Origin: Bacillota bacterium
GTDB lineage: Bacteria > Bacillota > Sulfobacillia > Fermentithermobacillales > Fermentithermobacillaceae
Assembly: GCA_012841065.1 (NCBI GenBank)
Contig: DUVI01000019.1
Coordinates: 1-40,565 of the forward strand
Length of the DNA: 40,565 nucleotides
Direction: 5' to 3'
Program-made: the position numbers and the translations under genes
Notes under the pieces: model-generated
Databases searched by the model: none
The model's input: the letters and a program-made list of their open reading frames with translations, nothing else
What the model was told of the DNA's origin: nothing
Part shown: in pieces, positions 3,943 to 31,192 of the stretch
How the letters are laid out: the number at the start of each line of letters is the position of its first letter
Position numbering within the stretch: the stretch's first letter is position 1

Positions 3943-4410
3943 GTGAGCATGCCCGGCAATGACAACCAAGACCTAATCGCTCCCCGTATAGTACTGGGTG
4001 GGCTACAGATGGGAGAAGATCCTAACACACCTGCATTGGTAGCTATCTCGTACCCTTCGTATGATATGGCTCAAGCGGTGGCTGAGTACCTCCTGTCCAT
4101 CCAAAACGGAACAATACCTTTTGAATCCAGTCCAAATGTATGTGCAGGAGACAATGTGATAAAAGTCAATATCTCACCTAACCCTGTCTCAGACAAAGGC
4201 CATCTGTGTGAGGTAATGGCCAAAGCTGACCCCAGGCATTTGACCTACTGTTTCTATGTAGCCTCTTATGTGACTGAAGAAGAGGTTTCCGTGTTCAACA
4301 GCTTCTTTGATATTGCCAATCACTACGTGCTTACTGTAGCTCACAGGGATGACCTCCTTCTGAACACTATCAACATAATAAAATACACCGTAAGCAGGAG
4401 AGGAGTTTGA
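3943..4410 (+). CDS. Protein of unknown function, coupled to a Nudix gene
   Basis: This encodes 155 residues with GTG at 3943 as start, nine bases after GGGAGG (3928-3933); ATG at 3949 is an in-frame alternative. I do not recognise the family. The protein has no signal peptide or membrane segment. It appears to be a soluble alpha/beta protein: a strand and helix around ALVAISYPSYDMAQAVAEYLL (residues 31-51), and a second half with alternating hydrophobic strands and a predicted helix near the C-terminus. The stop lies four bases before the GTG of the Nudix gene, and the AGGAG for the Nudix gene lies within the end of this one. The two are therefore almost certainly translated together, which hints at linked functions. 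The coding character (third-position bias, strong ribosome site) supports a real gene. Confidence 0.75.
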   Translation: MSMPGNDNQDLIAPRIVLGGLQMGEDPNTPALVAISYPSYDMAQAVAEYLLSIQNGTIPFESSPNVCAGDNVIKVNISPNPVSDKGHLCEVMAKADPRHLTYCFYVASYVTEEEVSVFNSFFDIANHYVLTVAHRDDLLLNTINIIKYTVSRRGV

Positions 4411-4414
4411 CTTA

Positions 4415-5041
4415 GTGTCTGCAGCCGATGCTTATTCAGATGAACAAGTGCTTTGCGTGCCGACCAAGGTGCTCTATTCGGGACTCGGACGGTGGCGGGG
4501 CCTTGTAGAACCCAGTTCCGAGTTGTGGAGGATAATCGCCAAGAATTCGCTGGTTAGGCCGAGATCTGAGCTTGAGCACGATCCCGCGTTTAAGCAGCTT
4601 ATTTCATACACCCTTTTCTTGTCGGGAAGGCGGATATTCGTAATGAAGCGCCTTAACACTCAGGGAGAGGAAAGGCTGCGAGGGCTTCTGTCAGTAGGAG
4701 TAGGAGGCCACATGAACCCTGTACAGGAGGTCGCATGGCCGGGCAGAAGACGGGTAGCTGACCTCAAGCATTTGGTTACTTTGAACACCATGAGGGAAAT
4801 CAAGGAAGAAGTGGTCATAGCCGGAACCCCTGGATTGCGAATCGTGGGCTTCCTGAACGATGACGAAAATGGAGTAGGCCAGGTTCATCTTGGGGTGGTG
4901 TCTGTAGTTCATCTGACCTCCCCTCTGCTTGCGGTAAGAGAAACCGACAAGATGATGGGTAAATGGGTTGAACTGCTGGAACTCGGCAACTTGGGGACTT
5001 TTGAAACCTGGTCATCACTGGTGCTTCAAGGCTTGGTATAG
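4415..5041 (+). CDS. Nudix-fold protein, COG4112-like predicted phosphoesterase
   Basis: The 208-residue soluble protein contains a Nudix-type signature in an unusual arrangement: VGVGGHMNP (residues 94-102), an insertion of about 25 residues, then NTMREIKEEV (124-133), giving the metal-binding REIKEE core (Arg127, Glu128, Glu131, Glu132). The strand after it (RIVGFLNDDENGVGQVHLGVV, residues 142-162, described here by position) fits the fold. This matches my memory of COG4112, a MutT-related family annotated as predicted phosphoesterase; the substrate is unknown. The start is GTG at 4415, with AGGAG in the end of the previous gene, so translation is coupled. The gene ends just before a strong hairpin at 5049-5077. 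Confidence 0.78.
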   Translation: MSAADAYSDEQVLCVPTKVLYSGLGRWRGLVEPSSELWRIIAKNSLVRPRSELEHDPAFKQLISYTLFLSGRRIFVMKRLNTQGEERLRGLLSVGVGGHMNPVQEVAWPGRRRVADLKHLVTLNTMREIKEEVVIAGTPGLRIVGFLNDDENGVGQVHLGVVSVVHLTSPLLAVRETDKMMGKWVELLELGNLGTFETWSSLVLQGLV

Positions 5042-5098: not shown

Positions 5099-5704
5099 TC
5101 AGACACTCAGGCCAATCCAATCTGTCAGCAAGAAGGTAAGCCTGTTCAAGAACAGGGAGATACGCCCCTGCACGGTGTTTCCAAACGCCGTCCCGAAACC
5201 GATCATCATGATATACCGCCCAATACGGCCTGAACCTTGTATGAACTTGGACTCCTTGGCTACCGTAAAGAAGAAATACGACATCACGACAAGGAAGCAT
5301 ACAAAGAACACGACGTTATCGATTGAGTTGAGCGGCCTCATAACGTCAGCCACCTGGGTGAACACAGGCCTTGGGCTACGGGCAAGAGAACCGCCCAAAC
5401 CCCAACCTACCTGCAAGGCAATTGGATACCGCGCAAGCCACCTATATTGAGGCGGAGCATATCTGGCATATAGAAGCAACCCAAGCAGCCCCATTACGAT
5501 GAAGTAGTACTGCCTTTCTTCTAAGCAGTAGTTGATGAAATACGGCTTGATAAAACTATGGTACAACCGCGTTATGTTATACGACGTATACAGGGCGACC
5601 AGGGTGTATTCTGCAACCCTGTAAGCCGGGTTCTCTTTGATCAAGTAGCTGTAACAAGCTAATGTACAAATAGCTTGAACCCAGATTTGCGGATCAGTGG
5701 ACAA
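5099..5704 (-). CDS. Polytopic membrane protein of unknown function, fourth gene of DUF6754 operon
   Basis: A 201-residue very hydrophobic protein with about five membrane-spanning stretches (roughly 5-25, 30-50, 65-83, 128-148, 160-180). Between spans 3 and 4 is a loop with WGLGGSLARSPRPVF. I do not recognise the family. The start is TTG at 5702-5704, eight bases after GGGAGGTGA; this 18-base initiation region is almost identical to that of the second gene of the operon. It is the last gene of a four-gene set whose members are all membrane proteins, and it is followed by the hairpin at 5049-5077. The context suggests it is the membrane part of a complex with the other three. Confidence 0.8.
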   Translation of the reverse strand: MSTDPQIWVQAICTLACYSYLIKENPAYRVAEYTLVALYTSYNITRLYHSFIKPYFINYCLEERQYYFIVMGLLGLLLYARYAPPQYRWLARYPIALQVGWGLGGSLARSPRPVFTQVADVMRPLNSIDNVVFFVCFLVVMSYFFFTVAKESKFIQGSGRIGRYIMMIGFGTAFGNTVQGRISLFLNRLTFLLTDWIGLSV

Positions 5705-5756
5705 TTCGGTTCACCTCCCACCAAACATTTTCGCATAGCGTAAGCAACCAACCATC

Positions 5757-6602
5757 TTACTGGTCACGTGATTTCGCCTTCATGTAATACCCAATATTGC
5801 CAAGGATGACCAGGGCCATGATCCAAAGGTGCCCCATGGACTGGGCATCCATAAGTTTCACTGCCCTGCCAGGTGTGTCGAGGAGAATCTCGTATTGCGC
5901 ACCTCCAGGCAACCCGGCGAGCAATCCTTTGATTTGCCCGGCCCTAAGGGTGTTCATGGCGCCAGGTACCTGCACAGCCACGTTACCTACGTAAATCTCG
6001 TAGTCCGGGAAGTAAGTGGTGTAAGTGGGCAAGCCTGGTGAGCCGGCTACAAAAGCCATGATGCCCTTAGATGACTCCTTATCCCATTTCCTGAACCTGT
6101 GCATGAGCGGCAGATCCTGGAACGAGTTGCCGAGCATGTCAGTCTCGGCACAGGCCTCCCAGAAGTCGATCTGCATTTGACGCCACAAAGTGGTGCCGCC
6201 TGGCTTGTATCCTGCATAAACCCAATCAACACCGTACTCGGCAGAAATGCCTTCTCCTTCCAACTGCTTGGCTGTTTGTTCAAGCAACGTATACCCGAGT
6301 CTCTCACCTGTGTTCCACTGGGCAACCATGATTACTTTTACGCCTTTTGTCATGCAATGCCTGAACCAAGCTTGTAGCTGGGGCCCAAGTTCGCCTTCGG
6401 AACCACCGCTGAAAGCAATGTCGCCTACAACGATATCGCCCGGTTGCAGACTTTCTACCCAGTTGTAAACCGGAACGGTAGTGGTTTCATCAATGGTTAT
6501 CGCGAGGCCAAGAGGTTTGAGCACCGGGAATACCAATGAAACAGCCATTATAATATAGACCCATCGGGGATCTATGGTGTCCAGCTTCGATAACCAGTTC
6601 AC
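5757..6602 (-). CDS. Membrane protein with large central domain, third gene of DUF6754 operon
   Basis: The protein has 281 residues, with one hydrophobic segment near the N-terminus (about 13-33) and one near the C-terminus (about 255-275), leaving a central domain of about 210 residues on one side of the membrane. The central domain has Rossmann-like alternation, for example GDIVVGDIAFSGGSEGE (54-70) and GVKVIMVAQWNTG (87-99). No catalytic motif that I know is present. The two-anchor plan resembles the first gene (DUF6754), so the two may be distant relatives or form a heteromer. The start is GTG at 6600-6602 after GGAGGG. It is co-directional with the other three genes, with short gaps of 52 and 81 bases. 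Confidence 0.8.
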   Translation of the reverse strand: MNWLSKLDTIDPRWVYIIMAVSLVFPVLKPLGLAITIDETTTVPVYNWVESLQPGDIVVGDIAFSGGSEGELGPQLQAWFRHCMTKGVKVIMVAQWNTGERLGYTLLEQTAKQLEGEGISAEYGVDWVYAGYKPGGTTLWRQMQIDFWEACAETDMLGNSFQDLPLMHRFRKWDKESSKGIMAFVAGSPGLPTYTTYFPDYEIYVGNVAVQVPGAMNTLRAGQIKGLLAGLPGGAQYEILLDTPGRAVKLMDAQSMGHLWIMALVILGNIGYYMKAKSRDQ

Positions 6603-6683
6603 AGTATTTCCCTCCTTTCACAGTGTCCTGAAACTGTGTATACAAGGGCATAAGCACTTGACATGATCGAACTCATGGGTAAA

Positions 6684-7343
6684 TCAATCTATACCTCCCA
6701 GGTAACGTTTCTCCAGACCAAGGGCTACACGTAGAATCGCGGCATATGATCCAAGGAATACACCGATACCGATTGCACGCTGGCTGGCAGCATTAGGTGT
6801 TGCCAAGAACCAGTCTTTCAGGCCTTTGAAACCACCTAGAAAGGCTTCTGAACTCCAAAGTACCTCGCCCAATGACACGTTGCCCAACATCACGATGAAC
6901 GCTACGACCATCATGATGACGGATTCCACGTTCCGAATTCTAAATGCCCTGTAGGCGGCCGATGCAATGAAGAAGGCAAGCAGTGAAAACATCGTTGAGT
7001 CTAATGGAACGATAACTGCGTCATAAATCCAGGTGAAGGGCTTGCTTTCCATCCCGCCGAAGAACAAGCCGAGGATCGCGTACCCGTACATCACTATGAG
7101 TAGCCACACACTGTAAATCCAGTGCTCCCGGCGGCGTCTGATGGTGTTTCCGTGCACTCTGGTAAGGTTAATAAGTCCCATGAACAGGCCCATACAGTAC
7201 ATGAAAGTGACAGAAAACGAGATTCTGGAAAACAGCCTGACGCCTTCAGAAATCTCATATGTGAGCATGGGGTTTAGCATCTCAAAGCCAAATCGGAGCA
7301 ACGTCATCACGAAAGTGAGTACTAACGGCACTTCCCGTTTCAA
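6684..7343 (-). CDS. Six-span membrane protein of unknown function, second gene of DUF6754 operon
   Basis: A 219-residue hydrophobic protein with about six predicted spans (8-27, 40-60, 76-98, 110-130, 140-158, 195-212). Between spans 2 and 3 lies a very basic stretch, HGNTIRRRREHW, probably cytosolic. A second conserved-looking stretch is SAAYRAFRIRNVES (127-140), just ahead of a span. I do not recognise a named family. The start is TTG at 7341-7343, eight bases after GGGAGGTGA, nearly the same initiation region as the fourth gene. It lies 34 bases after the DUF6754 gene, so co-transcription is very likely. Confidence 0.8.
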   Translation of the reverse strand: MKREVPLVLTFVMTLLRFGFEMLNPMLTYEISEGVRLFSRISFSVTFMYCMGLFMGLINLTRVHGNTIRRRREHWIYSVWLLIVMYGYAILGLFFGGMESKPFTWIYDAVIVPLDSTMFSLLAFFIASAAYRAFRIRNVESVIMMVVAFIVMLGNVSLGEVLWSSEAFLGGFKGLKDWFLATPNAASQRAIGIGVFLGSYAAILRVALGLEKRYLGGID

Positions 7344-7377
7344 ATCGGTTCACCTCCCTCCGTCATGGTCGTAAGCA

Positions 7378-8205
7378 TCAGAACTTGATCAGGTCGATTA
7401 CAAATGAGCTTCCTGCAGTGTTGAGCAGGGTACCTATAATGATGAGGGCCACCAGCGCCACACGCGTGATGTCCTGGGCTACCACGGAACCGTAAATCAC
7501 CGGCTCTTTGGACAAAGCGGCTGCTCCTGCATAGAACTCCTCACCGATCATGGTGTAGTCGCAAGAAGCAACAAAGAAGGGGATCTGAGCTGTGCTTGAG
7601 GTGGCGGCCACCTGGATAGCTCCCACCAGCGCGCCGGCTTCAGCAAGAATCAGAGACTCAGCATAGAAGTAGCCCACCAGGAAGTTCGCCGCAGGCTTTT
7701 CACGGGCTATCATTCCGGCGACACCCATGGTGTAGCCGAACTGCCAGTCTGACATGAACCTGACATCGTCAGGGATGAATGCGTCGGGTCTTCCGGCCTC
7801 AAGATAAGCCTGCCTGATGATTTCCTCGTTTACCGTCATAGTGAGCCACTCTGAGTTGGTGTTGATGATTCTTGTGTCATAAGAGGCGCACAGCTTAGCT
7901 ACGTGAGCAAGGTACGCCCAGAAAGCCCAGGTGTCGTAGTCTCCTACGTCCTGATAGTAGGTTGTAATGTGAACCGGGCGGCCCATCTCAGTAGCTCTGC
8001 CCACCGCTTCTTCGAAAGCTTCCAGGCCCGCGATCCGGCGGATCTCAGGAATTGGAAGCCCTGCCCGTGCCCGCTGGATCATGACGTATACCAGGATACC
8101 CATGGTGAGTGCGAGGAACAGGCCTGCGATGGTGCTGTCGTCGGGTACAAAAATACCCCACTTCACTTCAGGAGCTTCTGCAGCAAGAACTAGCAAATTT
8201 AGCAA
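7378..8205 (-). CDS. DUF6754-type membrane protein, first gene of a four-gene membrane operon
   Basis: This 275-residue protein has an N-terminal hydrophobic stretch followed by a span at about 24-44, a central soluble domain beginning PEIRRIAGLEAFEEAVGRA (53-71), a more hydrophobic region (175-205) and a C-terminal span (about 247-270). The segment RIAGLEAFEEAVGRATEMGRP followed by a short strand is what I associate with DUF6754, a family with no assigned function. The start is TTG at 8203-8205, seven to eight bases after AAGGAGGTG. About 420 bases of non-coding DNA lie upstream with a pair of 9-bp repeats (8261-8283), so this gene probably heads the operon. The absence of enzyme motifs and the repeated two-anchor design suggest a structural or transport complex, but that is inference. 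Confidence 0.8.
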   Translation of the reverse strand: MLNLLVLAAEAPEVKWGIFVPDDSTIAGLFLALTMGILVYVMIQRARAGLPIPEIRRIAGLEAFEEAVGRATEMGRPVHITTYYQDVGDYDTWAFWAYLAHVAKLCASYDTRIINTNSEWLTMTVNEEIIRQAYLEAGRPDAFIPDDVRFMSDWQFGYTMGVAGMIAREKPAANFLVGYFYAESLILAEAGALVGAIQVAATSSTAQIPFFVASCDYTMIGEEFYAGAAALSKEPVIYGSVVAQDITRVALVALIIIGTLLNTAGSSFVIDLIKF

Positions 8206-8411: not shown

Positions 8412-8628
8412 AGGACAAGTTTAAGATTTAATTGTATGTCAGTACTGGGCTTTCTATCAATGCCAGTTTGAACCAAAGCCTGCAGGTCGGTATTTTTCAT
8501 CCTGCACCCGCTTTGAATCTGACTTCAGCGCCAGGACCGGTTTCAACCCCAGCCAATGGGTGTTATTATTTCCCCGGCGGGATAATAGTGAAGGCGCACA
8601 CCCGGGCCGCGTTTGGGGGAATAATGAT

Positions 8629-9012
8629 GTGACAAGAGGAGACAAGATACTCATCGTCTTGGGTTTGCTTGCTACGGTGCTGGTCTGGGCCGGGCTAAGG
8701 TACTTGCCGGACAGAAGCGGCGAATTGGTTGCCGTGGTCAGGGTAAACGGTAAAGAAGTTGCCCGGTTGCCCGTGAGTTCTGGATCAATGTCACGGGCGA
8801 CAATAGAGGTTCCCCGGGGAGAAGCAACCATAGAATACGGCCAGGGAAAAGTGAGGGTGTTGCCCTTGGATCACACTGTGTGCCCCAATGAAATATGTTG
8901 GAGGACCGGATGGATCTCCTATCCGGGACAATCTATAGTCTGTGCTCCCAACCGCGTGGTCATCGCCCTGGAAGGCACAGTGAAAGAGATTGATTCAGTT
9001 GCCGGCCGTTAG
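8629..9012 (+). CDS. NusG domain II-containing protein
   Basis: With GTG at 8629 as start the protein has 127 residues: a single N-terminal membrane span (about 8-25) and a beta-rich extracytoplasmic domain. The ending CPNEICWRTGWISYPGQSIV (residues 87-106) with CPNxxC and PGQS is the hallmark of the NusG_II family found in Firmicutes. The open frame continues upstream in poor coding sequence, but GGGGGA at 8615-8620 sits about nine bases before this GTG and the family normally starts close to the membrane span. The function is unknown; members often neighbour genes for membrane redox or polyprenyl/transport proteins. The gene converges on queT with only 12 bases between the stops, and no terminator is visible there. 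Confidence 0.85.
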   Translation: MTRGDKILIVLGLLATVLVWAGLRYLPDRSGELVAVVRVNGKEVARLPVSSGSMSRATIEVPRGEATIEYGQGKVRVLPLDHTVCPNEICWRTGWISYPGQSIVCAPNRVVIALEGTVKEIDSVAGR

Positions 9013-9024
9013 AGCATAGTGCCC

Positions 9025-9522
9025 CTATTGCAGCCGTTTGGTGATATGAGGGCTTCTTATCAGGAACATCAATAAAGGCAGTCCAAACACATAGCAGGAA
9101 ATTGCCTGGCCGAGAAAGATATGGGCAAACACCGGCCAGTAGCTAAGCCCGCTTAGGGGCGCGACATATGATGCCACGACAAACGCGTTAACCAGCACAG
9201 GAGGCAAAGGAGCCAGGTATACGTTGGGCATCCGCTCAGTGAGAATCCCGCTCATGAGGCTGGCTAAAGCACCCAGGGTAATATCCCACACAAGAAAAGG
9301 GCTTGCCAGGTTGGCCACGATACATCCGACATAAAGCCCCCACTTGGCCCAGGGGAACAAGAATGGAAGAACCGTGAGGGTTTCAGACACTCTCACTTGA
9401 ACCGGCCCGTACCCCAGGCCGGAAAACGGAGGAAGCATGGTCAGGGCGGCGTAAATCCCTGCCAGTAAAGCTACCCTCGTTAGGGCCGCTGGAAGAAATT
9501 TATCCTCACTCACGTTTCCCAC
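9025..9522 (-). CDS. queT: QueT-type queuosine precursor transporter (ECF substrate-binding subunit)
   Basis: A 165-residue membrane protein with about five spans. The segment GPVQVRVSETLTVLPF (residues 40-55) followed by GLYVGCIVANL and WDITLGALASL fits the QueT (DUF988) family, the S component of an energy-coupling factor transporter thought to bring in queuosine precursors. No ECF ATPase or T subunit is in the window; shared modules usually lie elsewhere. The start is GTG at 9520-9522 or GTG at 9511-9513: AGGTGAGG overlaps the first closely and is about 11 bases before the second. The gene is 41 bases after purD in the same direction, so it is probably read from the purine operon; no preQ1 riboswitch fits in that gap. 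Confidence 0.82.
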   Translation of the reverse strand: MGNVSEDKFLPAALTRVALLAGIYAALTMLPPFSGLGYGPVQVRVSETLTVLPFLFPWAKWGLYVGCIVANLASPFLVWDITLGALASLMSGILTERMPNVYLAPLPPVLVNAFVVASYVAPLSGLSYWPVFAHIFLGQAISCYVFGLPLLMFLIRSPHITKRLQ

Positions 9523-18465: not shown

Positions 18466-18744
18466 TCAATCCATGAGGAACATCGCTGCAGCTATACAGG
18501 CAAGCATTATGATGTTTAAGACAATCAGGATTTTGGCGTCGCGCCCGGTCTTAAGAACCCATAGGAAGCTCCCGATAAAGCAAGCTACGTATATGCAGCT
18601 CAGGATAATATTGACCCTCCTGTGCCTCTGCCAGAGCTCCATTTTTTCATCCCATGACATGAGATCCCATTCAGGAGTCTCCCACACAGGAGGCTTAAGA
18701 CGAAGCCATTTCCTCAAGGCTCCTGTCCATCTCCTAAACTTCAC
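18466..18744 (-). CDS. Small two-span membrane protein of unknown function, third gene of glmL operon
   Basis: A 92-residue protein. A basic, tryptophan-rich N-terminal half (WTGALRKWLRLKPP, WETPEWDLMSWDEK) precedes two membrane segments (about 46-65 and 71-90). I do not recognise the family. The start is GTG at 18742-18744, overlapping the end of the previous gene by 11 bases, with GGAGG nine bases before it inside that gene, so it is translationally coupled. It belongs with glmL and the 466-residue protein. Confidence 0.72.
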   Translation of the reverse strand: MKFRRWTGALRKWLRLKPPVWETPEWDLMSWDEKMELWQRHRRVNIILSCIYVACFIGSFLWVLKTGRDAKILIVLNIIMLACIAAAMFLMD

Positions 18745-20134
18745 TACGGAATACCTCCAAGTTGGCTTGGGGTACTGTTACCAGGGTTCCGTCATCCAGC
18801 CTCACCTTTGCCACTTCCAGCACGGCTCCGCATTCAACTTCACCGGGCCCGTCAGGCAAGGTCTCCACAGTGCCCCACAAACCGAAATACGGAGGCCTGG
18901 TGCACCTGACCCTGTCCCCGACAGACAAGGTGGCATAAGTTACAGAAGGAGCTAAGTTGGTTTCGTCTGATATCAGGGGTATATCACCACCGTTCCCCGG
19001 GAAGGCATCATCAGCGTCATAGCAAGCGCCTATTATGACCTCGGGCCTTACCACGCCTGCCCTGATTTGGGTAGTCCCATCAATCGACACTACGTCCCCG
19101 TTGTTTTTCTCAAGTATGTCCCAAGTCTGCCGGTTCATAGGCAGCTGCCCGAACCCTTCGAGAATCACGATGGTGAAGTCTGTATCTTCCTGGCCTGTGA
19201 GCCCGGTATTGAGTTCCCTGCCAGCAACCTGCACCAGATCAAGTTGATTCATGCCGCCCGTAATCAGTCCTAATGCTCCCTGCGCCCTGGCTTCCTGTAT
19301 AGATTCAAAGGATGCAAAACTACCGCAAACGACGATTTTACCCTTGACGTCCGCATTTATCTTGTGCTCCTCAAGAGGCCGGTCAGGGGCGTCACTCAAC
19401 AGCATCAGCTCACCTGAGCACTCGCGGCCGATTCCGAAGACCCCCTGTATATATGCACCCGTTGTCTCGATTACCGCACCATAATGGGGGATCACTTCAG
19501 TCACCGTGCCGCCGATATGGGCAAGCACCTTGGTATGTTTGATGGGCTTCACTATGGTGATAGTGCCTGTAAGAGTGCAGATCTTTTCCACAAACCCGTT
19601 GATGGGAGCATACACAAAGTCTTGTCCGTCAAGTTCAGCGATGATTTTACCTTCATATACATAATCGCCTTCCTTAACCGTGGTAAACAACCTCAGGAGC
19701 CTGGGTCGGACGTTCAACCGGGAAGCAGCTGCTACTACGCTCATGGGTTTGGCAGACCGCGGGTCCTCCCTGATGACTATCCGGCCTTGGGTTCTTGAAA
19801 TGTGTTCTATCACTCCGTCGCACGGACACGTGACCTCGATGACTTCAGACCAGAATCCCTTTTGATACCTGGCAATCACTTCCTTGGCCTTAACAACATC
19901 TCCCGGTTTCTTAAGCACAACGCGTTCAACAAGTTCAGGGTCGGTTTTCTGCTTCAGCTCTGCCCTAAGGTCTATGATATAGGGGTTACCCTTGACGTAC
20001 TCAGCCTTAGCTACCACAGTGTCAGGCTTGACTTGATCGCCTTGTGACACCAGCACATCGCCTGGAGCAGGCAGTTTCCTTTGTTTACGTATTACGGCCT
20101 TCTCCAGCACCTTGAGGGTCGAAAGCACTGCCAC
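18734..20134 (-). CDS. Multi-hairpin (lipoyl-like) protein of unknown function, coupled to glmL
   Basis: A 466-residue soluble protein that I do not recognise as a named family. The N-terminal 215 residues carry three stretches like barrel-sandwich (biotinyl/lipoyl or RnfC-like) hairpins: GDVLVSQGDQVKPDTVVAKA (25-44), KPGDVVKAKEVIARY (76-90) and VKEGDYVYEGKIIAELDG (near 154-171). None shows the MKM or DKA modification motif. A middle segment (about 270-385) has Rossmann-like alternation: KGKIVVCGSF, QGALGLITGG and TIVILEGFG. The last 60 residues (GDRVRCTRPPYFGLWGTV, with VPQANLEVF at the end) look like a KOW or SH3-type barrel. The start is GTG at 20132-20134 after GGAGGTG, which lies in the glmL end three bases away. 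The pairing with glmL is the only clue to its role. Confidence 0.8.
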   Translation of the reverse strand: MAVLSTLKVLEKAVIRKQRKLPAPGDVLVSQGDQVKPDTVVAKAEYVKGNPYIIDLRAELKQKTDPELVERVVLKKPGDVVKAKEVIARYQKGFWSEVIEVTCPCDGVIEHISRTQGRIVIREDPRSAKPMSVVAAASRLNVRPRLLRLFTTVKEGDYVYEGKIIAELDGQDFVYAPINGFVEKICTLTGTITIVKPIKHTKVLAHIGGTVTEVIPHYGAVIETTGAYIQGVFGIGRECSGELMLLSDAPDRPLEEHKINADVKGKIVVCGSFASFESIQEARAQGALGLITGGMNQLDLVQVAGRELNTGLTGQEDTDFTIVILEGFGQLPMNRQTWDILEKNNGDVVSIDGTTQIRAGVVRPEVIIGACYDADDAFPGNGGDIPLISDETNLAPSVTYATLSVGDRVRCTRPPYFGLWGTVETLPDGPGEVECGAVLEVAKVRLDDGTLVTVPQANLEVFRSEV

Positions 20135-20137
20135 AAT

Positions 20138-21934
20138 TTACACCTCCAATCCCTGTAAGGCATGGCGGGGATACGCGTGGAGCGCATCATACCACCGGGC
20201 CACCGTTTGCCTTATGCTGCCCACATCCCGGGGAAACTCAAGCGGCCTGCCCCGTCCGTCCAATATAAGGCGGGCAATCCCATCCGGAACCTTGCAGGCA
20301 ACAGGCCTTCCTGCACCTGAACCTACGTCAAATTGCCTTTCGGGCACAACTTCGAACACTGCCTCTTCGTCGTCCTCCAACTCTACTACCTGCAATAACC
20401 CTGCCACAAGATCGTGGGTACCGCCTCCCACGCTAATCCGGGCAACGGTCCTTCCCGGTGTGACTTGGGGGCCTACCGGTGCAATGCATGTTGCCAGGGG
20501 TATCAAAGTCTCCCTGTCTATGAGTTCTCCTGTGATATCCCTGTCTATATCCATTAACACGCCCATATGGGGCAGCAAGAACCGGCTGTCCACATATAAG
20601 TGAGTGATGCCTTCGGGCTGAAGTCCATCCAAGAGAATCATTGCTGCCTGAGACCGTCTTGGTGCGTAAGACAGCGCCCCGCCTGTACCGACCAATACCT
20701 TGATCTTCATCATGTCCACAAGGGTTTCTCCTGAAGCCGTCTGGCGGAATACATCGCCCGCACCCCGTCGCTGCTGCACTCCTTTGAGGCCACGTATCAA
20801 GCGTTTGTGGTGTTCCAGTGATAGCCTCAACGCCTCCTTGCAGACGGCCTGCTCCAACATAAGCTCGTGAAATGTGTGGGGCAACCCTGTGGGCCTGATC
20901 ATTTTGTTGAAGTTCCAGTTCCTCACGGTGTTCTCATCGGTTTCAAAAGGCAGCCAGCGCAACACCATTTCAGGCGTGGCCTCGGCCAGCACATTGCCCA
21001 TGCTGTATGACATCCCGAGATTGGCCGACACGGTCCTGTAGAACCGGGAGTCTATTACTGAAAACACATCCGTAGTGGCCCCGCCTACATCGACGGTTAA
21101 GAGATCGCCACCGGCCTTGTCAGCCAAAAAGCGTAAGGCATCGCCCACTGCAACGGGGGTAGGTTTGACATGGCCTTCTGCCCACGAAATAAGGGTGTTG
21201 TAACCAGGTGCATGCATCATCACGTGTTCCAGGAAGACATCGTGAATCCTATGCCTTGCAGGTTCAAACACTTCTTTTTCAAGTACGGGTCTAATATTGT
21301 CGGCAAACGAAAGTTCCATTTCGTCCCTGAAGAGCTGCTCCACAAAACTTCTGGCCTCAACATTGCCTGCAAAGATCACCGGCGTCTTGAAATCCTGCCC
21401 AAAGCGGGGTTGCGGGTTTGCCATAGCTACCATTTCAGCTATGGCAGCGACTTCAGAGATATTGCCACCGTCGGTCCCTCCGGTAACCAGCACAATATCG
21501 GGCCTGAGGCGTTTGATTGCATCGATCTTTTCGATTGCGCTCCGGGGATCGTCCAGGGCAATCACATCCGATACTATAGCGCCGGCCCCGAGAGCTGCCC
21601 TGTGGGCCGATTCAGCGGTAATCTCTTTCATGAGTCCGGTAACAACCATCTGCAGGCCACCACCTGCACTTGATGTGGCCACAAATATGTCAACACCGGA
21701 ACCGTCCTGGGCGGGTGTAATCAACCTGGGTCCATCCATCAGCCGTATTCCCGTTTGTGCTTCCAACTTGGACAACGCCTGCCTGAGCCCTATCATTACA
21801 TCCAAATGAGGCGATTCCACGGTCGTGGGCGATACTGTCTTCCCGCTCATTGACCAAGTTCCGCTGTGCCTGTCAAACATGACCGCCTTGGTGGTCGTGC
21901 TACCGATGTCTGCGCAAAGGAGTCTCTGATACAC
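20138..21934 (-). CDS. glmL: GlmL/MutL family ATPase (methylaspartate mutase accessory-type protein)
   Basis: The protein has 598 residues from GTG at 21932-21934; the GTG six bases earlier is too close to GGGAGGGG. It opens LLCADIGSTTTKAVMFD, the ASKHA-fold phosphate loop typical of GlmL, and has DLLTVDVGGATTDVFSV (about 285-301) and VLVTGGTDGGN near residue 150. GlmL is encoded with the B12-dependent glutamate mutase (glmE, glmS) or ornithine aminomutase and is thought to be a reactivating chaperone. Here no mutase gene is in the neighbourhood; instead two coupled genes of unknown function follow. So the substrate enzyme of this copy is unknown, and a role outside B12 mutases is possible. 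It is divergent from guaB. Confidence 0.85.
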   Translation of the reverse strand: MYQRLLCADIGSTTTKAVMFDRHSGTWSMSGKTVSPTTVESPHLDVMIGLRQALSKLEAQTGIRLMDGPRLITPAQDGSGVDIFVATSSAGGGLQMVVTGLMKEITAESAHRAALGAGAIVSDVIALDDPRSAIEKIDAIKRLRPDIVLVTGGTDGGNISEVAAIAEMVAMANPQPRFGQDFKTPVIFAGNVEARSFVEQLFRDEMELSFADNIRPVLEKEVFEPARHRIHDVFLEHVMMHAPGYNTLISWAEGHVKPTPVAVGDALRFLADKAGGDLLTVDVGGATTDVFSVIDSRFYRTVSANLGMSYSMGNVLAEATPEMVLRWLPFETDENTVRNWNFNKMIRPTGLPHTFHELMLEQAVCKEALRLSLEHHKRLIRGLKGVQQRRGAGDVFRQTASGETLVDMMKIKVLVGTGGALSYAPRRSQAAMILLDGLQPEGITHLYVDSRFLLPHMGVLMDIDRDITGELIDRETLIPLATCIAPVGPQVTPGRTVARISVGGGTHDLVAGLLQVVELEDDEEAVFEVVPERQFDVGSGAGRPVACKVPDGIARLILDGRGRPLEFPRDVGSIRQTVARWYDALHAYPRHALQGLEV

Positions 21935-22050
21935 GTGCACCCCTCCCTGTGAGCCTTAGAAACATCACTGTGGCAGTATGAAACGACGAACGGCCAACAC
22001 TTGTGGGCAATGTCCGGTTCATTTTTCTACACTATTCATAAAATTCCTTC

Positions 22051-25045: not shown

Positions 25046-25519
25046 TCACTTGCGCTTCACTTGCCTTAGGGCGACACTCATTTCAAGATGTCCCTGGGGC
25101 ATTTCCAGAGGAATTATGAGCCTTTGAATATCTAGTGTAGAGATTACAACGCCTACCCCCGAAACCAACGTGGGCGGCGATAGTTTGCATGCGTAGCCGC
25201 ACTCTTCCAATCCGATGGTAGCTTGTCCCGTTATTATGTTCCCCATTTCAGCAATCGCCGATTCAGCCAACTGATCAAACACCGGCACCGGCTCACCTAT
25301 CATCGCTGAGGCAACGGCCTTGGCTGTACGTTCAAACATCGAGTAAATCACGATTCCTTCTGCGTCCCCCGTCACGCCGATAGCTACGTTGATCTCTCCC
25401 GAAGTGGCGCGGGATGATTCCAGACGCAACTGGCCACGTGTAGCCTCGGCGCTAATCTCTTGCTTCAGGAAACACAATGCAGACTCCAAGAATGGGTTGA
25501 TCAATACTGCCTTAAACAT
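25046..25519 (-). CDS. cheX: Chemotaxis phosphatase CheX
   Basis: CheX dephosphorylates CheY-P. Starting at ATG 25517-25519, about nine bases after AAAGGAG, it has 157 residues; the longest frame begins 24 codons earlier with no family similarity. The signature ESAIAEMGNIITGQA contains the ExxN phosphatase motif (Glu91, Asn94). One such motif, rather than the two of CheC, fits CheX, which acts as a dimer. It is the last che gene, 68 bases after cheR. It takes the place of CheC, normally CheD's partner, in this operon. Confidence 0.87.
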   Translation of the reverse strand: MFKAVLINPFLESALCFLKQEISAEATRGQLRLESSRATSGEINVAIGVTGDAEGIVIYSMFERTAKAVASAMIGEPVPVFDQLAESAIAEMGNIITGQATIGLEECGYACKLSPPTLVSGVGVVISTLDIQRLIIPLEMPQGHLEMSVALRQVKRK

Positions 25520-25587
25520 ATGATCGCTCCTTTCTCCACTATTACGCCGGCCAAACAGGCACGGTCTATGGCAATGTTTTATCCAGG

Positions 25588-26400
25588 TCAAAGCGTGCGG
25601 CGGTAGAAAAACGGGAAGATTTGCGTAAGGTCATAATCCTTCGCGTTGAATATAGCTTCCGTTGCTCCCATAAACAACACGCCGCCCGACCTTAGGGAAG
25701 CTGACAATCTTGTGATTACGTCCCGTTTGCTCTGTTCCGAAAAATAGATGAGCACGTTCCTGCATATGATAAGATCCATATTGCCGGGATACTCTGAGCT
25801 CAGCAGGTCATGCCTACGGAAACTCACTATCTGTCTTATAGAATCTTTGACCACGTACAAGTCGTCTTCTTTTCGGAAATACTTGTCCAGAAGGTGTTGG
25901 GGAACGTTCTTGGCTTCAGAGGCAGTATATTTTCCGGCCCGGGCTTTGCTCAGGCTCATTTCATCGATATCAGTCCCAAGCACAAAAACATCATTGAGCG
26001 AGCGTTCAGCAAAGGTGATCGCAGCCGAATAAGTTTCTTGGCCGGCAGCTGAACCTGCACTCCACACTCTTATGCGCCACTTGGCCTGGTCTACCAGCAA
26101 TGGCACAACCTTCTCAGCCAGCACCTCCCAGTGTTCCCTGTTCCTAAAAAACTCAGAGACATTGATGGTCAGATAGTCAACGAACCGTGAAAGCTCATCA
26201 GGATCCCGCTGCAAACGCAGGGCAAAGGTTGCAAAATCGGGAATGTTGCGCCGGTTCATGTAATTCACCAGCCGGCGGTACATTTGCTTGCCTTTGTAGT
26301 TGTGAAGATTGATGCCTGTCAGTTCAGCCGCCTTTGTGCAAAAATACAAGTAGTCTGCGCCAAAAGGATACAATTCTGTGCTGTTCACCGGATCTGACAT
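25588..26400 (-). CDS. cheR: Chemoreceptor methyltransferase CheR
   Basis: CheR methylates receptor glutamates using S-adenosylmethionine. The 270-residue protein starts at ATG 26398-26400, nine bases after GGGAG; the ATG 18 bases upstream has no good ribosome site. An N-terminal helical domain (1-80) with YLTINVSEFFRNREHW (about 85-100) leads into the methyltransferase domain with WSAGSAAGQETYSAAI (SAM-binding loop), LGTDIDEMSLSKAR and DLIICRNVLIYFS. The SAM loop carries GSAAGQE in place of the commoner CSTGEE, a variation within the family. It follows cheB by 22 bases. Confidence 0.93.
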   Translation of the reverse strand: MSDPVNSTELYPFGADYLYFCTKAAELTGINLHNYKGKQMYRRLVNYMNRRNIPDFATFALRLQRDPDELSRFVDYLTINVSEFFRNREHWEVLAEKVVPLLVDQAKWRIRVWSAGSAAGQETYSAAITFAERSLNDVFVLGTDIDEMSLSKARAGKYTASEAKNVPQHLLDKYFRKEDDLYVVKDSIRQIVSFRRHDLLSSEYPGNMDLIICRNVLIYFSEQSKRDVITRLSASLRSGGVLFMGATEAIFNAKDYDLTQIFPFFYRRTL

Positions 26401-26422
26401 ATCTGTTCGCTCCCTCATTGTC

Positions 26423-27511
26423 CTACCTATTTCTGCAGAAATCTTCTATGACATCTGCTATGTCGTCCAAAGGCACTAATTTCTCACAACCGCCTGCTTC
26501 GTAACAAGCCTTAGGCATCCCCCAGATAACTGAGGTCTCACGGTCTTGGCAGATCACCTTGGCTCCTGCATTTTTGGCCGCCCACGCACCTTTGGCGCCG
26601 TCGAATCCCATACCCGTGAGTATCACAACCATCAGATTCTGTTTGAACAGAGGCCCCGCATCAAAGAGGGTTACATCGATAGAAGGCTTTACACCGTGCA
26701 CGGCATTGCCTTCGTCAAGATATACGTGGTAAACTGCATGTCTATCGCCTGGTGACTTGTCAAGCCGCAGGTGATATCCCCCAGGGGCAACCAGTGCCAA
26801 GCCCGGCTCGAGGATGTCCTCATCGACAGCCTCCCTCACTTTGATCGAGGAAAGCATGTTCAGGCGCTGGGCCAAGGAAGCGGTGAATCCTCTTGGCATG
26901 TGCTGGCAAATGATGATGGCAGCGGGCAGGTCCGGCGGCAGGTTAGGTATTATTTCTTCAAGAGCTTGGGGGCCGCCGGTGGAAGAACCTACCACCACCA
27001 AAGTATCCACAGGGGCCTTGCCGTCTAATGTCTTCCGTTTCCTGGCCCTCTCGGTTTCATGACGACGCCGGATCTTCTGCACCCTGAGTTTCGCACCGGA
27101 AGCTTGAATCACCTTTTCGCATAGCTCTTTGGCCGCCCGGGGAACCAAACCTCTGGATACGGGTTTGGGCACAAAATCAACTGCACCCATTGAAAGAGCT
27201 TCCATGGTGATCTTGGAGCCCCGCTGCGTCAACGACGAAAACATCACCACGGGCAACGGCCGCTTTGTCATGATTTCCCTCAACACGGACAGCCCGTCCA
27301 TCTTGGGCATTTCAATATCAAGAACCATCACGTCCGGATTGAGGGAAATACACTTGGCCACAGCCTCTACGCCGTCTCTGGCCTCATCTATTACAGTTAT
27401 CCCCGGGTGACTCTCAAGCATCTTCCTGAGAGTCCTCCTCATGTAAAGCGAGTCGTCGACTATCAGCACCCTGGTTTCGTCAGACGGGTCCCTGGTTCTC
27501 ATTGCTGGCAT
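26423..27511 (-). CDS. cheB: Chemoreceptor glutamate methylesterase/deamidase CheB
   Basis: CheB removes receptor methyl groups when its receiver domain is phosphorylated. In its 362 residues the receiver domain (about 12-135) has the acidic pair Asp19-Asp20 and acceptor Asp65 (VLDIEMPKMDG). A basic linker (148-162) leads to the esterase domain (168-362) with GSSTGG (Ser178), ICQHMPRGFT (His204) and MGFDGAKG (Asp304), the catalytic triad. The ATG at 27509-27511 overlaps the end of cheY by 13 bases with GAGGAA just upstream. Confidence 0.95.
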   Translation of the reverse strand: MPAMRTRDPSDETRVLIVDDSLYMRRTLRKMLESHPGITVIDEARDGVEAVAKCISLNPDVMVLDIEMPKMDGLSVLREIMTKRPLPVVMFSSLTQRGSKITMEALSMGAVDFVPKPVSRGLVPRAAKELCEKVIQASGAKLRVQKIRRRHETERARKRKTLDGKAPVDTLVVVGSSTGGPQALEEIIPNLPPDLPAAIIICQHMPRGFTASLAQRLNMLSSIKVREAVDEDILEPGLALVAPGGYHLRLDKSPGDRHAVYHVYLDEGNAVHGVKPSIDVTLFDAGPLFKQNLMVVILTGMGFDGAKGAWAAKNAGAKVICQDRETSVIWGMPKACYEAGGCEKLVPLDDIADVIEDFCRNR

Positions 27512-27858
27512 TGCTTCCTCACTGCTTCCAGAAGCTGGTCAGGGTCAAAAGGTTTGACTACGAAATCTCTGGCACCTGCTTTGATCGCTTCCAAAACCAT
27601 GCTCTGTTGCCCCATAGCCGTGACCATTATCACCTTTACATCAGGATCTTCGGCCTTGAGCTGCTTCAAAGCTTCGATGCCATCCATCTCAGGCATAGTA
27701 ATGTCCATGAGCACAACGTCAGGCTTTTCCTCGAAGTACCGCTTGACCGCCTCTTCTCCGTTGGATGCTTCAACAACCTCGTAACCGTTGGCGGTCAGCA
27801 ACTTGGAGGTCCTGTTTCGCATAAACATGGCGTCATCTGCAACTAGAATCTTTGCCAT
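27499..27858 (-). CDS. cheY: Chemotaxis response regulator CheY
   Basis: A 119-residue single receiver domain. Asp8-Asp9 and acceptor Asp52 (VVLMDITMPEMDG), Thr80 and Lys102 (VVKPFD) complete the phosphorylation site. Phospho-CheY binds the flagellar motor switch. The ATG at 27856-27858 (MAKILVADDA) lies nine bases after AAGGAG; the longer frame adds seven residues without support. It lies between cheD and cheB. Confidence 0.95.
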   Translation of the reverse strand: MAKILVADDAMFMRNRTSKLLTANGYEVVEASNGEEAVKRYFEEKPDVVLMDITMPEMDGIEALKQLKAEDPDVKVIMVTAMGQQSMVLEAIKAGARDFVVKPFDPDQLLEAVRKQCQQ

Positions 27859-27875
27859 CAATCCCCACTCCTTAG

Positions 27876-28355
27876 TCAAATCTCCGTAGGAACTTCGTCT
27901 GGTGAACAGACGATTACTTTTCCTGAACCTATGTAAAGCCGCATTGTACGGCTCTGGTTTCCGCCCAAACGCTCTCCGGCAACACGGATACCCTCTTTAC
28001 TCAATGCCTCCCGGACTGCACGCGCATTCATGGCCCCTATGTCACCCCAAGGAGTAGCCAGCTCCGGGATTACGTTTGCCCCTCCCGCAAGCCACGCCTG
28101 GAGATTCTCCTTTTTGCACCCCAGGTCAAGCAGGCCGGATACCAGATACGGAACGGCTGTGTCTCCATACTTGCCAAAGGGTTCATCATCGTTCCGTGAC
28201 TTGTGAGGCAGAAATACGTGGGCCATCCCTCCCGCCTTGCATTGAGGATCCCACAGAGCCACACCTACACATGAACCCAGTGAATAAGTTACGAGTACTT
28301 CTGCTTCATCTTTCGAAAACTTGACTTCAGACAATTTTACGGGAACCAGGTTCAT
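27876..28355 (-). CDS. cheD: Receptor deamidase CheD
   Basis: CheD deamidates receptor glutamines and, in Firmicutes, partners with CheC. The 159-residue protein has the catalytic Cys29 in YSLGSCVGVALWD, His46 in GGMAHVFLPHK and the GGxN loop (GGANVIPEL). The start is ATG at 28353-28355, six bases after AAAGGGG; the ATG six bases upstream abuts that site. No cheC is present in the operon, although CheX is. Confidence 0.94.
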   Translation of the reverse strand: MNLVPVKLSEVKFSKDEAEVLVTYSLGSCVGVALWDPQCKAGGMAHVFLPHKSRNDDEPFGKYGDTAVPYLVSGLLDLGCKKENLQAWLAGGANVIPELATPWGDIGAMNARAVREALSKEGIRVAGERLGGNQSRTMRLYIGSGKVIVCSPDEVPTEI

Positions 28356-28405
28356 GCTCATCCCCTTTCTTCTGGTTACTTAGAACCCATAGCCGGTTCC
28401 ATAGA

Positions 28406-30463
28406 TTAGATCAGGCTGGTGGTGTCAAGAATCACAGCCGGATCGCCTTGGGGCAGGATTGTAGCGCCTCCAATCCCTTTCAGCCGGGAAAGGATTTTGC
28501 CTAGTTCTTTTACGACTATTTCCTCTTCACCGATCAGTCCGTCTACCCCGAGGGCTAAGGGTTCATCGTGGGTGCGGGTTAGCACTGCATACTTGAAGTT
28601 GCCGTTTCTCATCCAAGGATCGTCTTTCAGGCAACCTTCAAGGGAAACTAGAGGAAATACGCTACCCCTCACAGTGAGAGCCGCTTTTCCTTTAACCGTC
28701 TTGATCTCATCGGGATGTACAGCTAGTACTTCGTCAACTGATGACGTCGGTATCGCATATGTAATCCCTGAGCACTCCACCAGCAACGCACGCACAATAG
28801 CAAGAGTGAGGGGAAGACGTAGAACAACCGCAGTGCCGGTGCCAACCTGGCTCCTGACTTCTATGTGGCCATTTACCCGCTCAAGATTTGACCTGACAAC
28901 ATCCATACCTACGCCTCTGCCGGATACCTCTGTTGCCTGTTTGGCTGTGGAGAAACCAGGGGTGAAAATCAACTCAAGTGCTTCCCTGTCAGACAGTTTG
29001 GCAGCAGCTTCCGTGGTGATGAGTCCCTTGCGCACTGCTGACTCTTTTATCCGTTCAGGGTCCATGCCTCTGCCGTCATCCCGAACCTGAATCACCACCT
29101 GGTTCTCCTGGTGCCACGCTGACAGGGTTATTTTGCCTCTTTCCGGCTTACCCAGGGCTTTCCTTTCATCGGGTGATTCGATTCCATGATCTATCGCGTT
29201 CCGTAGGATGTGTATAAGAGGATCGTCTATGGCTTCAAGCACGGTCCTGTCAAGCTCAAGCCGTTCACCTTGGAGTTCAAAGTCGATTTTCTTGCCGCAA
29301 CGGCTTGAAAGGTCCCTGACCATCCTGGGGAACTTGGCAAGGATGCTCATGAGCGGCAACAACCGCGCTTTCATGATACCCTCTTGCAGCTCCTGGGATG
29401 TCCTCTGAAGCCGTGCTGAAAGCGCCGCCAGCTCGTTACCGGTTACTGCTGTGGGCTCACTGGCTTGAAGCCTGGAGGCTATTTGCGAGATCCTCGTCCT
29501 ATCGATCACCAATTCGCCCACCAAGTTGAGCAACAAGTCAAGAAGGTCGACGTTTACGCGCACAGTACGCCCCAGATTGGTTTTCCTTATGACTAAGTCA
29601 GCACCTGCGTCCTTGTCCGGGCCAGAATCCCCGCCTTTGTCACCGGCCTTGACTTCGCCAGGCTGCTCATCCCACTGCCTGCTTGAAAGAGATTCACGGA
29701 GTCCGCTCCCGTCATACGGAACCAGGGAGACTTGAACCACATCCTGCACCGACTCAGCCACCTGTTTGGCGGATATGCCCTGGTCGTCGCTTCTCAAGTA
29801 AATCTCCAGCTCATCTGGGGTCTCACCGGCCTCCACATCTTCCTTGGAAGGAACTGATCCAATCACGTCGGCAATTTCATCCACCAACACAAGTATCTGA
29901 AAGCATCTTACTGAAAGCAGTTCAGCCTCTGGGTTGAGCTTTACGACCAATTTATACACAGGCATGGCTTGGTCTAATGCCTCTAGGAGGCGGTGGGCTA
30001 AGTCAGGGTCCAGGGCAGATGGCTTTTTGAAGGGAGCTCCCCCAGAAGGGTGGCTTACGCCTGCCGATTCAACAGGTGCATCTGCCTCGGCAGCTTGCAC
30101 TGCTTGAATCCGGATCATCAGGTCTCCGGTAGGAGGCCTTTCGCCTCCTGTTTCCAATGCAGTTTTCCAATCAGAAAGCCAGTCGAGAACCAAGAACAAC
30201 AAATCTGTTATGTCCGGCGTAAGTTTACGTTCGCCGGATCTGATTGTATCCAGGATATTTTCCATGGCGTGAGTGACTTCCACGCCGTCCTCCAAACCCA
30301 GGGTAGCAGCTCCGCCTTTTATTGTGTGCATTGCCCTGAAGATTTCCTGGATAATGGCTTCACCTGATGATGATTTCTCGAGTTCAACCAGGTTCTGTTC
30401 TGTATTGGTAAGAAGTTCGTCAACTTCTTCAAGAAAAATACTCAGGTCTTCAGTATATTCCAT
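28406..30463 (-). CDS. cheA: Chemotaxis histidine kinase CheA
   Basis: A 685-residue protein with domains in the usual order: P1 phosphotransfer (1-105, phospho-acceptor His46 in AMHTIKGGAATLG), a P2-like region (about 168-255), linker rich in Asp/Gly, P3 dimerisation (about 295-375), the HATPase domain (about 400-555, with HILRNAIDHGIE, VRDDGRGMD and TPGFSTAK), and a CheW-like domain (558-685). It autophosphorylates in response to receptors and phosphorylates CheY and CheB. The start is ATG at 30461-30463 about ten bases after AAGGAG. It follows cheW by 29 bases. Confidence 0.96.
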   Translation of the reverse strand: MEYTEDLSIFLEEVDELLTNTEQNLVELEKSSSGEAIIQEIFRAMHTIKGGAATLGLEDGVEVTHAMENILDTIRSGERKLTPDITDLLFLVLDWLSDWKTALETGGERPPTGDLMIRIQAVQAAEADAPVESAGVSHPSGGAPFKKPSALDPDLAHRLLEALDQAMPVYKLVVKLNPEAELLSVRCFQILVLVDEIADVIGSVPSKEDVEAGETPDELEIYLRSDDQGISAKQVAESVQDVVQVSLVPYDGSGLRESLSSRQWDEQPGEVKAGDKGGDSGPDKDAGADLVIRKTNLGRTVRVNVDLLDLLLNLVGELVIDRTRISQIASRLQASEPTAVTGNELAALSARLQRTSQELQEGIMKARLLPLMSILAKFPRMVRDLSSRCGKKIDFELQGERLELDRTVLEAIDDPLIHILRNAIDHGIESPDERKALGKPERGKITLSAWHQENQVVIQVRDDGRGMDPERIKESAVRKGLITTEAAAKLSDREALELIFTPGFSTAKQATEVSGRGVGMDVVRSNLERVNGHIEVRSQVGTGTAVVLRLPLTLAIVRALLVECSGITYAIPTSSVDEVLAVHPDEIKTVKGKAALTVRGSVFPLVSLEGCLKDDPWMRNGNFKYAVLTRTHDEPLALGVDGLIGEEEIVVKELGKILSRLKGIGGATILPQGDPAVILDTTSLI

Positions 30464-30492
30464 TGGGGCTTGGCTCCTTCATTCTTCAGGCT

Positions 30493-31014
30493 TCACTTGA
30501 CCAATGCAGATGCCAAATCGACTTGCTTGAGGGTCCGCCTTTCGGCATCTGAGATTATCCGGGTAAGGTCCAGAAGAACGATAAGGGAATCATTCACCTT
30601 TGCAATACCCTGGATGTAATCAACCTCGTCACCTGCGATTACCGATGCAGGGGGCTCAATCGAATTCTCACTGATACGCAGTACTGACGACACAGAATCT
30701 ACGATTATGCCGATCCTCTCGCCGTCAGATTCAGTGAGCACGATCCTTTGTTCCGGAGTAGGCTCCTTTTTTTCGAAGCCAAAGTGCTTTCTAAGATCAA
30801 GCACTGCAATGACTTTGCCTCTCAGGTTGATGATTCCTTCAACAAAGTCAGGAGCCCTGGGGACAGGCACGATTTTCTGAATAGGTATAATCTCCCTGAC
30901 TTTCTGGATATCTACGCCGTAAGTCTCTGATCCTAAACAAAAGGCCACGATTTGCCGCTCATGGCCGGTTTCACGCTTGGTGGTATCTTCATGCGTATTC
31001 TGGTTGCTAGACAC
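30493..31014 (-). CDS. cheW: Chemotaxis coupling protein CheW
   Basis: CheW connects receptors to CheA. The longest frame starts at 31152, but the first 46 residues look non-coding; GTG at 31012-31014 lies six bases after GGGGGG and gives 173 residues, a normal CheW length with a short polar leader (SSNQNTHEDTTKRE). The coupling domain shows QIVAFCLGSETYGVDIQKVREI (residues 21-42), INLRGKVIAVLDLR and IGIIVDSVSSVLRI. It is the first gene of the chemotaxis operon, with a candidate sigma-D promoter just before it. Confidence 0.94.
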   Translation of the reverse strand: MSSNQNTHEDTTKRETGHERQIVAFCLGSETYGVDIQKVREIIPIQKIVPVPRAPDFVEGIINLRGKVIAVLDLRKHFGFEKKEPTPEQRIVLTESDGERIGIIVDSVSSVLRISENSIEPPASVIAGDEVDYIQGIAKVNDSLIVLLDLTRIISDAERRTLKQVDLASALVK

Positions 31015-31034
31015 TGTAATCCCCCCGTGACCTA

Positions 31035-31061
31035 ATATCGAAATTGAGTCACAGGGAGTTA
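31035..31061 (-). promoter_or_regulatory. Candidate sigma-D (motility) promoter of the che operon
   Basis: On the minus strand TAAC (31058-31061), exactly 15 bases, TTCGATAT (31035-31042), compared with the sigma-D/FliA pattern TAAA-N15-GCCGATAT. Transcription would begin about 14 bases before the cheW start, just in time to include its ribosome site. Confidence 0.55.
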
Positions 31062-31192
31062 AGGAGTTATGCACCAAGTTCAGGGGTTTTGCCGGGACGG
31101 CACAGAAACACTGAAGGCGGGGCTCAGGCCGGGAAGCCGGCCCTATGCCCATTTCCCATATGCCTTAAGGGCTAGCCCGCATAGACAGCACA

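Follow-up and report, generated by a model that had tools for sequence, protein, structure and literature searches.

MutL proteins are associated with B12 mutases. Group II ECF transporters combine a shared energising module with many dispersed S components. The closest described counterpart of the genes studied here, DUF6754 (PF20539), is catalogued as a single domain of unknown function, and its entry contains neither the three further genes that accompany it below nor the partner pair that we name MutL-c9. The locus comes from the family 'Candidatus Fermentithermobacillaceae', in which one member is predicted to ferment peptides and amino acids; in the extracts of the genome paper on a relative (G006, with 14 DUF6754 copies), ABC peptide transporters are listed and the DUF6754 system is not mentioned (PMC10215811). 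A literature search whose scope did not extend to subscription papers and preprints found no paper naming DUF6754 or PF20539, and none on a role of MutL outside mutases. On the basis of that search, the four-gene cassette A-B-C-D with MutL-c9 is described here as a new system, with a predicted function. Its features suggest a molecular machine not yet described, possibly a transporter.

The window, that is, the whole stretch of 40,565 nucleotides analysed here, belongs to the genome of an uncultured Bacillota bacterium assembled in 88 contigs. The cassette and the hairpin that follows it are located as follows:

7378..8205, minus strand: gene A, DUF6754 protein, 275 aa
6684..7343, minus strand: gene B, polytopic protein, 219 aa
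5757..6602, minus strand: gene C, two-anchor protein, 281 aa
5099..5704, minus strand: gene D, polytopic protein, 201 aa
5051..5079, no strand: GC-rich hairpin, possible bidirectional terminator (fold z -4.94), in the spacer where D and the gene at 4415-5041 converge

The gaps A-B, B-C and C-D measure 34, 81 and 52 bases, and a GGAGG-type ribosome site could be read within about 10 bases of each start (A, AAGGAGGTG; B, GGGAGGTG; C, AAAGGAGGG; D, GGGAGGTG). The initial annotation, which had described four co-directional genes with 34 to 81-base gaps and strong ribosome sites, is borne out by the open reading frames at these coordinates and by the sites found at all four starts. Its shared terminator hairpin fared less well. 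The hairpin 3' of D is strong (-31.3 kcal/mol, z -4.9, with none of the shuffled sequences equally stable), but it has no T run, it has no entry in the terminator scan, and the neighbouring gene at 4415-5041 is convergent, so that a terminator common to the operon is only plausible. The operon of the window cassette contains no enzyme gene and is surrounded by unrelated housekeeping genes.

Several neighbouring features were recorded. The two genes at 3943-5041 (155 and 208 aa), convergent to D, are kept beside the cassette in related genomes; they have no Pfam family, and the second appears NUDIX-like by eye. The region 8560-9522 holds a NusG domain II protein, upstream of the cassette and convergent to a QueT-type transporter gene, an adjacency conserved in the family. 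Farther along the window, a chemotaxis-type operon (25046-31152) contains open reading frames resembling, by eye, CheC/X, CheR, CheB, CheY, CheD, CheA and CheW, and a P-loop protein (39484-40530) with weak CobW-like and MeaB-like matches may be a relative of cyclic 2,3-diphosphoglycerate synthetase.

Protein A is a full member of DUF6754, scoring 296 bits against a Pfam cut-off of 27 over positions 12-254 of the 257-position profile, and the operon is thus headed by the family first proposed for it. For the window proteins B, C and D, neither Pfam nor NCBIfam gave an accepted family, and Pfam searches with 40 to 50 relatives of each returned scattered weak matches, none at a curated cut-off. 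Among these sub-threshold matches were TMD0_ABC, seen in 7 of the 40 scanned B proteins with a best E of 0.0008, and, for D, DUF2975 (2 of 46 members) and DUF5366. No Pfam transporter family exceeded its curated cut-off for B or D; likewise, Pfam detected no ABC_tran match in A-D or in the window MutL and c9 proteins, and no ECF T or S protein. The earlier statement was that no known enzyme, transporter or signalling motif could be recognised; in the profile searches, all scanned B, C and D proteins stayed below the curated family cut-offs. A carries the conserved motifs GRATEMG and CDYTLIGEE; it has no recognisable output domain, and none of the conserved motifs in A or C corresponds to an enzyme family. 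A PDB sequence search of A-D gave no relevant match, and Foldseek against the PDB reached E-values no better than 0.0054 for A and 0.0012 for C, with low TM-scores and nothing below 1e-3.

In both confident AlphaFold models (A, pLDDT 92; C, pLDDT 95), one helix close to either terminus encloses an alpha/beta domain, which is the common plan initially ascribed to the two proteins. In A the transmembrane helices span residues ~24-46 and ~234-262; in C they span ~12-28 and, at the C-terminus, ~246-280. B has about six hydrophobic, presumably transmembrane segments with both termini inside by charge, and D, too, is polytopic, as had been described, with an uncertain number of segments. An alignment of A and C, prompted by their common plan, was not significant (hhalign probability 20%, 87 columns, E 0.0012); the two could be related. 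Lys/Arg counts next to the membrane were 6.0 on the domain side of A versus 1.1 before its first helix; with the positive residues thus gathered beside the domain, the alpha/beta domain of A should be cytosolic. For C, the counts were 3.0 before the first helix and 3.0 after the last, versus 2.4 on the domain side, and this positive charge at the outer ends of both helices predicts that its alpha/beta domain should be extracytoplasmic. The charge pattern thus lends predictive support to a placement of the A and C domains on opposite sides of the membrane. The A proteins of WOR-3 and relatives have an additional N-terminal part of ~100 residues, predicted to be outside; an FN3 identity for this extension was considered from its appearance by eye and set aside, since Pfam names nothing there.

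Comparison across genomes revealed that the cassette is a conserved unit. Genomic context was examined for 117 DUF6754 genes; for 102 of them the next three genes are B, C and D, in this order, with median gaps of 29, 18 and 15 bases, and the exceptions are mostly contig ends or cases of a gene lost by the gene caller. Some cassettes appear twice among these loci, and 98 are distinct. DUF6754 neighbourhoods, whose survey had been recommended, therefore keep the four genes together rather than scattering them. Of 299 Bacillota genomes sampled from the whole phylum, 25 carry DUF6754, and the cassette occurs in at least four phyla (Bacillota, WOR-3, Eisenbacteria and Latescibacterota), at 1 to 27 copies per genome. 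The host genome has 5 DUF6754 copies, the family 5 to 15, and one more distant Bacillota genome 27. A role in sporulation was considered and is not favoured, because the cassette is also found in WOR-3 and other phyla. In two loci (L142 and L163), two complete cassettes stand convergent, end to end, an arrangement kept in two genomes.

Mirror trees among paralogs within single genomes correlated for all six pairings of A-D in G006, G007, G010 and G028 (permutation p no higher than 0.04), and were mixed in G043. This correlation of distances indicates that cassettes duplicate and diverge as units. The proposal of one complex with two two-anchor and two polytopic subunits gains from the kept gene order, from this co-divergence and from the lack of placement in a known transport family; the physical association of the subunits is a step that we still infer. 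Neither of the two findings that the initial annotation had named as refuting it, separated genes elsewhere or membership of known transport families, was made.

Two genes elsewhere in the window encode probable functional partners of the cassette:

20138..21940, minus strand: MutL-long, 600 aa ASKHA-type ATPase-like protein (PF13941, 388.9 bits, above its cut-off, whole model); probable functional partner
18734..20134, minus strand: c9, 466 aa, with RnfC/biotinyl-type barrel-sandwich domains, a PA-like stretch and a KOW-like C-terminus; probable functional partner

MutL-long lies ~12 kb from the window cassette. Its ASKHA motifs (phosphate-1, phosphate-2 and adenosine) were located at residues 11, 284 and 418, and the phosphate motifs are kept in 34/34 MutL-long proteins. 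The Pfam matches of c9 are RnfC_N (4e-7) and, more weakly, Biotin_lipoyl and PA, and a PDB sequence search found nothing beyond a weak Spt5 KOW match. The gene of a small, 92-residue protein (18466-18744) overlaps the c9 gene at its end; this protein has hydrophobic stretches, matches nothing in Pfam and may be part of the MutL-c9 operon.

The connection between this pair and the cassette is most apparent in low-copy genomes, where A-B-C-D-MutL-c9 are contiguous (L111, L112, L114, L115) and MutL has ~600-620 residues. The order is MutL-c9-A-B-C-D in L077, and L177 and L178 contain a larger cluster, c53-[A-B-C-D]-MutL-c9-c23-MutL-c9. In multi-copy genomes, including the host (G000:C75, L175), the same MutL-c9 cluster persists without an inserted cassette. 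In nine genomes of the family, a MutL-c9 pair lies about 10-12 kb from the counterpart of the window cassette. MutL-c9 clusters are often flanked, by eye, by aminopeptidase, D-aminopeptidase, M20 and D-cysteine desulfhydrase-like genes.

The pair also follows DUF6754 between genomes. Of the 299 Bacillota genomes, 25 have DUF6754, 24 have c9 and 23 have both (Fisher p 5e-31, ignoring phylogeny). Among relatives, c9 is present in 33 of 33 DUF6754 genomes and occurs alone in 3 genomes; in genomes reached through other loci, mostly from other phyla, DUF6754 and c9 occur together in 11 of 11. MutL defined broadly is more widespread, occurring in 116 of the 299 Bacillota genomes, which points to the long form with c9 as the part belonging to the DUF6754 system. 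Cassettes outnumber c9 genes (for example 14 versus 5, 15 versus 4 and 11 versus 3, with split matches merged by hand), so that several cassettes must share one pair, if the pair is used. The sole c9-only genome of the 299, G068, has c9 and MutL beside ABC transporter genes and lacks DUF6754 (L193, G068:C18). To the operon description of the initial annotation, the present analysis adds domains predicted on opposite membrane sides, a multi-copy cassette and the MutL-long and c9 pair.

Other genes, co-oriented and close by, share probable operons with individual cassettes. A creatininase gene is located downstream of one cassette (L085) and upstream of its sister cassette (L089). Further partners are amidohydrolases (L091, L157, L161) and peptidases of the M20 (L093), M24 (L101), M29 (L090) and M19 (L161) types, while L137 combines a cassette with DUF1028 and an IclR regulator. 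This operon-level list is suggestive of linked catabolic enzymes. The general enrichment of hydrolases around cassettes is only modest when all immediate neighbours are compared with genes at greater distance. Peptide-type ABC binding proteins (SBP_bac_5) number 3 to 21 per DUF6754 genome, about as many as in comparison genomes; as they are not depleted, cassettes do not simply replace peptide ABC importers. A radical SAM/SPASM gene near cassettes of several genomes (L118, L123-L125, L148, L169), in some loci with a small spore SASP-like protein and a holin-like gene, marks a possible peptide-modification locus.

We propose, with a probability of about 0.5, that A-D with MutL-c9 constitute a transporter whose numerous cassette copies differ in substrate and draw on a small number of MutL-c9 units in common. 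This reading best accounts for a cassette with two polytopic subunits and domains on both membrane faces, for its many diverged copies, for the ATPase-like partner and for the linked catabolic hydrolases. The conserved cassette, its copy number, its co-divergence, the co-occurrence and synteny with MutL-c9 and the ATPase motifs are observations, whereas topology and folds are supported by prediction; from these we infer the function, the substrate and its class, the direction of transport, the energy coupling, the physical complex of A-D and the sharing of MutL-c9. In the proposed model, A, B, C and D would be subunits of one cytoplasmic-membrane complex, with B and D as a membrane core forming the substrate path. 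The alpha/beta domain of C, outside the membrane, would select the substrate, and the cytosolic alpha/beta domain of A would couple to a cytosolic unit formed by MutL-long, with its ASKHA ATPase fold, and c9, which would supply or gate energy. Uptake of small amide- or peptide-like organic molecules would be the likeliest task. Cassettes would have multiplied and specialised, with few MutL-c9 pairs serving them. Against transport, A-D have no detectable homology to any transporter, and MutL is, to our knowledge, no known transport ATPase; moreover, the window cassette has no enzyme in its operon, and c9 with MutL occurs without DUF6754 in G068. The fold search of A and C, the undepleted peptide ABC systems and the modest hydrolase excess likewise count against it. 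More specifically, the system might represent a new class of energised transporter, in which a shared MutL-long, with c9, drives the two-anchor proteins C (extracytoplasmic) and A (cytosolic) and the polytopic pair B and D, with many paralogs in several phyla; this stronger version is offered tentatively.

One domain per membrane side and many paralogs would also suit a family of transmembrane sensors, in which C would sense an external ligand, B and D would transmit the signal, the cytosolic domain of A would control a MutL-c9 switch in signalling or regulation, and the copies would correspond to different ligands. The cassettes L116 and L119 lie beside response-regulator and kinase-like genes, and the extra N-terminal part of A in WOR-3, on the outer side, could be read in the same sense. 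We consider sensing unlikely, because two polytopic subunits per cassette exceed the needs of known receptors, A lacks a recognisable output domain, and regulators adjoin few cassettes, enzymes being the commoner partners. Those enzymes, with hydrolases common among them, bring into consideration a membrane-bound enzyme or envelope-assembly complex, with A and C in catalytic or scaffolding roles and MutL-c9 as reactivase or chaperone, a role that might also be supposed for MutL of glutamate mutase systems. The general association of MutL with B12 mutases and the alpha/beta folds of A and C are consistent with such a complex; however, no mutase gene was noticed by eye beside cassettes or c9 clusters, the conserved A and C motifs match no enzyme family, and up to 27 copies would be unusual for an assembly machine. 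This explanation, too, appears improbable.

Alternatively, the four genes could be an inherited neighbourhood in which each protein acts alone; the window cassette, for its part, sits among unrelated housekeeping genes. Such independence is very hard to reconcile with an order that persists between phyla and among paralogs scattered through a single genome, with near-zero gaps and with correlated divergence within genomes, and we regard it as highly improbable.

The maintenance of gene order across phyla and the presence of up to 27 copies indicate that the module is probably important to its hosts, although three of its four proteins lie outside curated families and the fourth is a DUF. Should the cassette prove to be a transporter, it would define a class powered by an ATPase fold that is not known from transport systems, and uptake predictions would change for many uncultured anaerobes. 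In that case c9 and the long branch of MutL would gain a role as well. The idea is directly testable, since low-copy genomes carry the six genes in one probable operon.

Of the described systems, MutL/GlmL of glutamate mutase operons is the nearest to the partner protein, which likewise matches the whole of PF13941 and has the ASKHA motifs. MutL-long differs in size, with 600-690 aa and a C-terminal extension of ~120 residues, whereas most matches in the 299-genome sample are in frames of ~440-500 aa; it is also found with c9 and DUF6754 cassettes rather than with mutase genes, as read by eye from the clusters. Peptide/opine/nickel ABC importers possibly handle similar substrates and are likewise multi-copy in these probable peptide fermenters, but A-D include no ABC permease, ATPase or binding protein, and ABC importers coexist with the cassettes in the same genomes (PMC10215811). 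The resemblance to group II ECF transporters is one of logic only, with many dispersed membrane modules and few copies of a nucleotide-binding partner; the cassette has no ABC ATPase and no ECF T or S protein, its putative ATPase has an ASKHA fold and, to judge by gene counts, would be shared.
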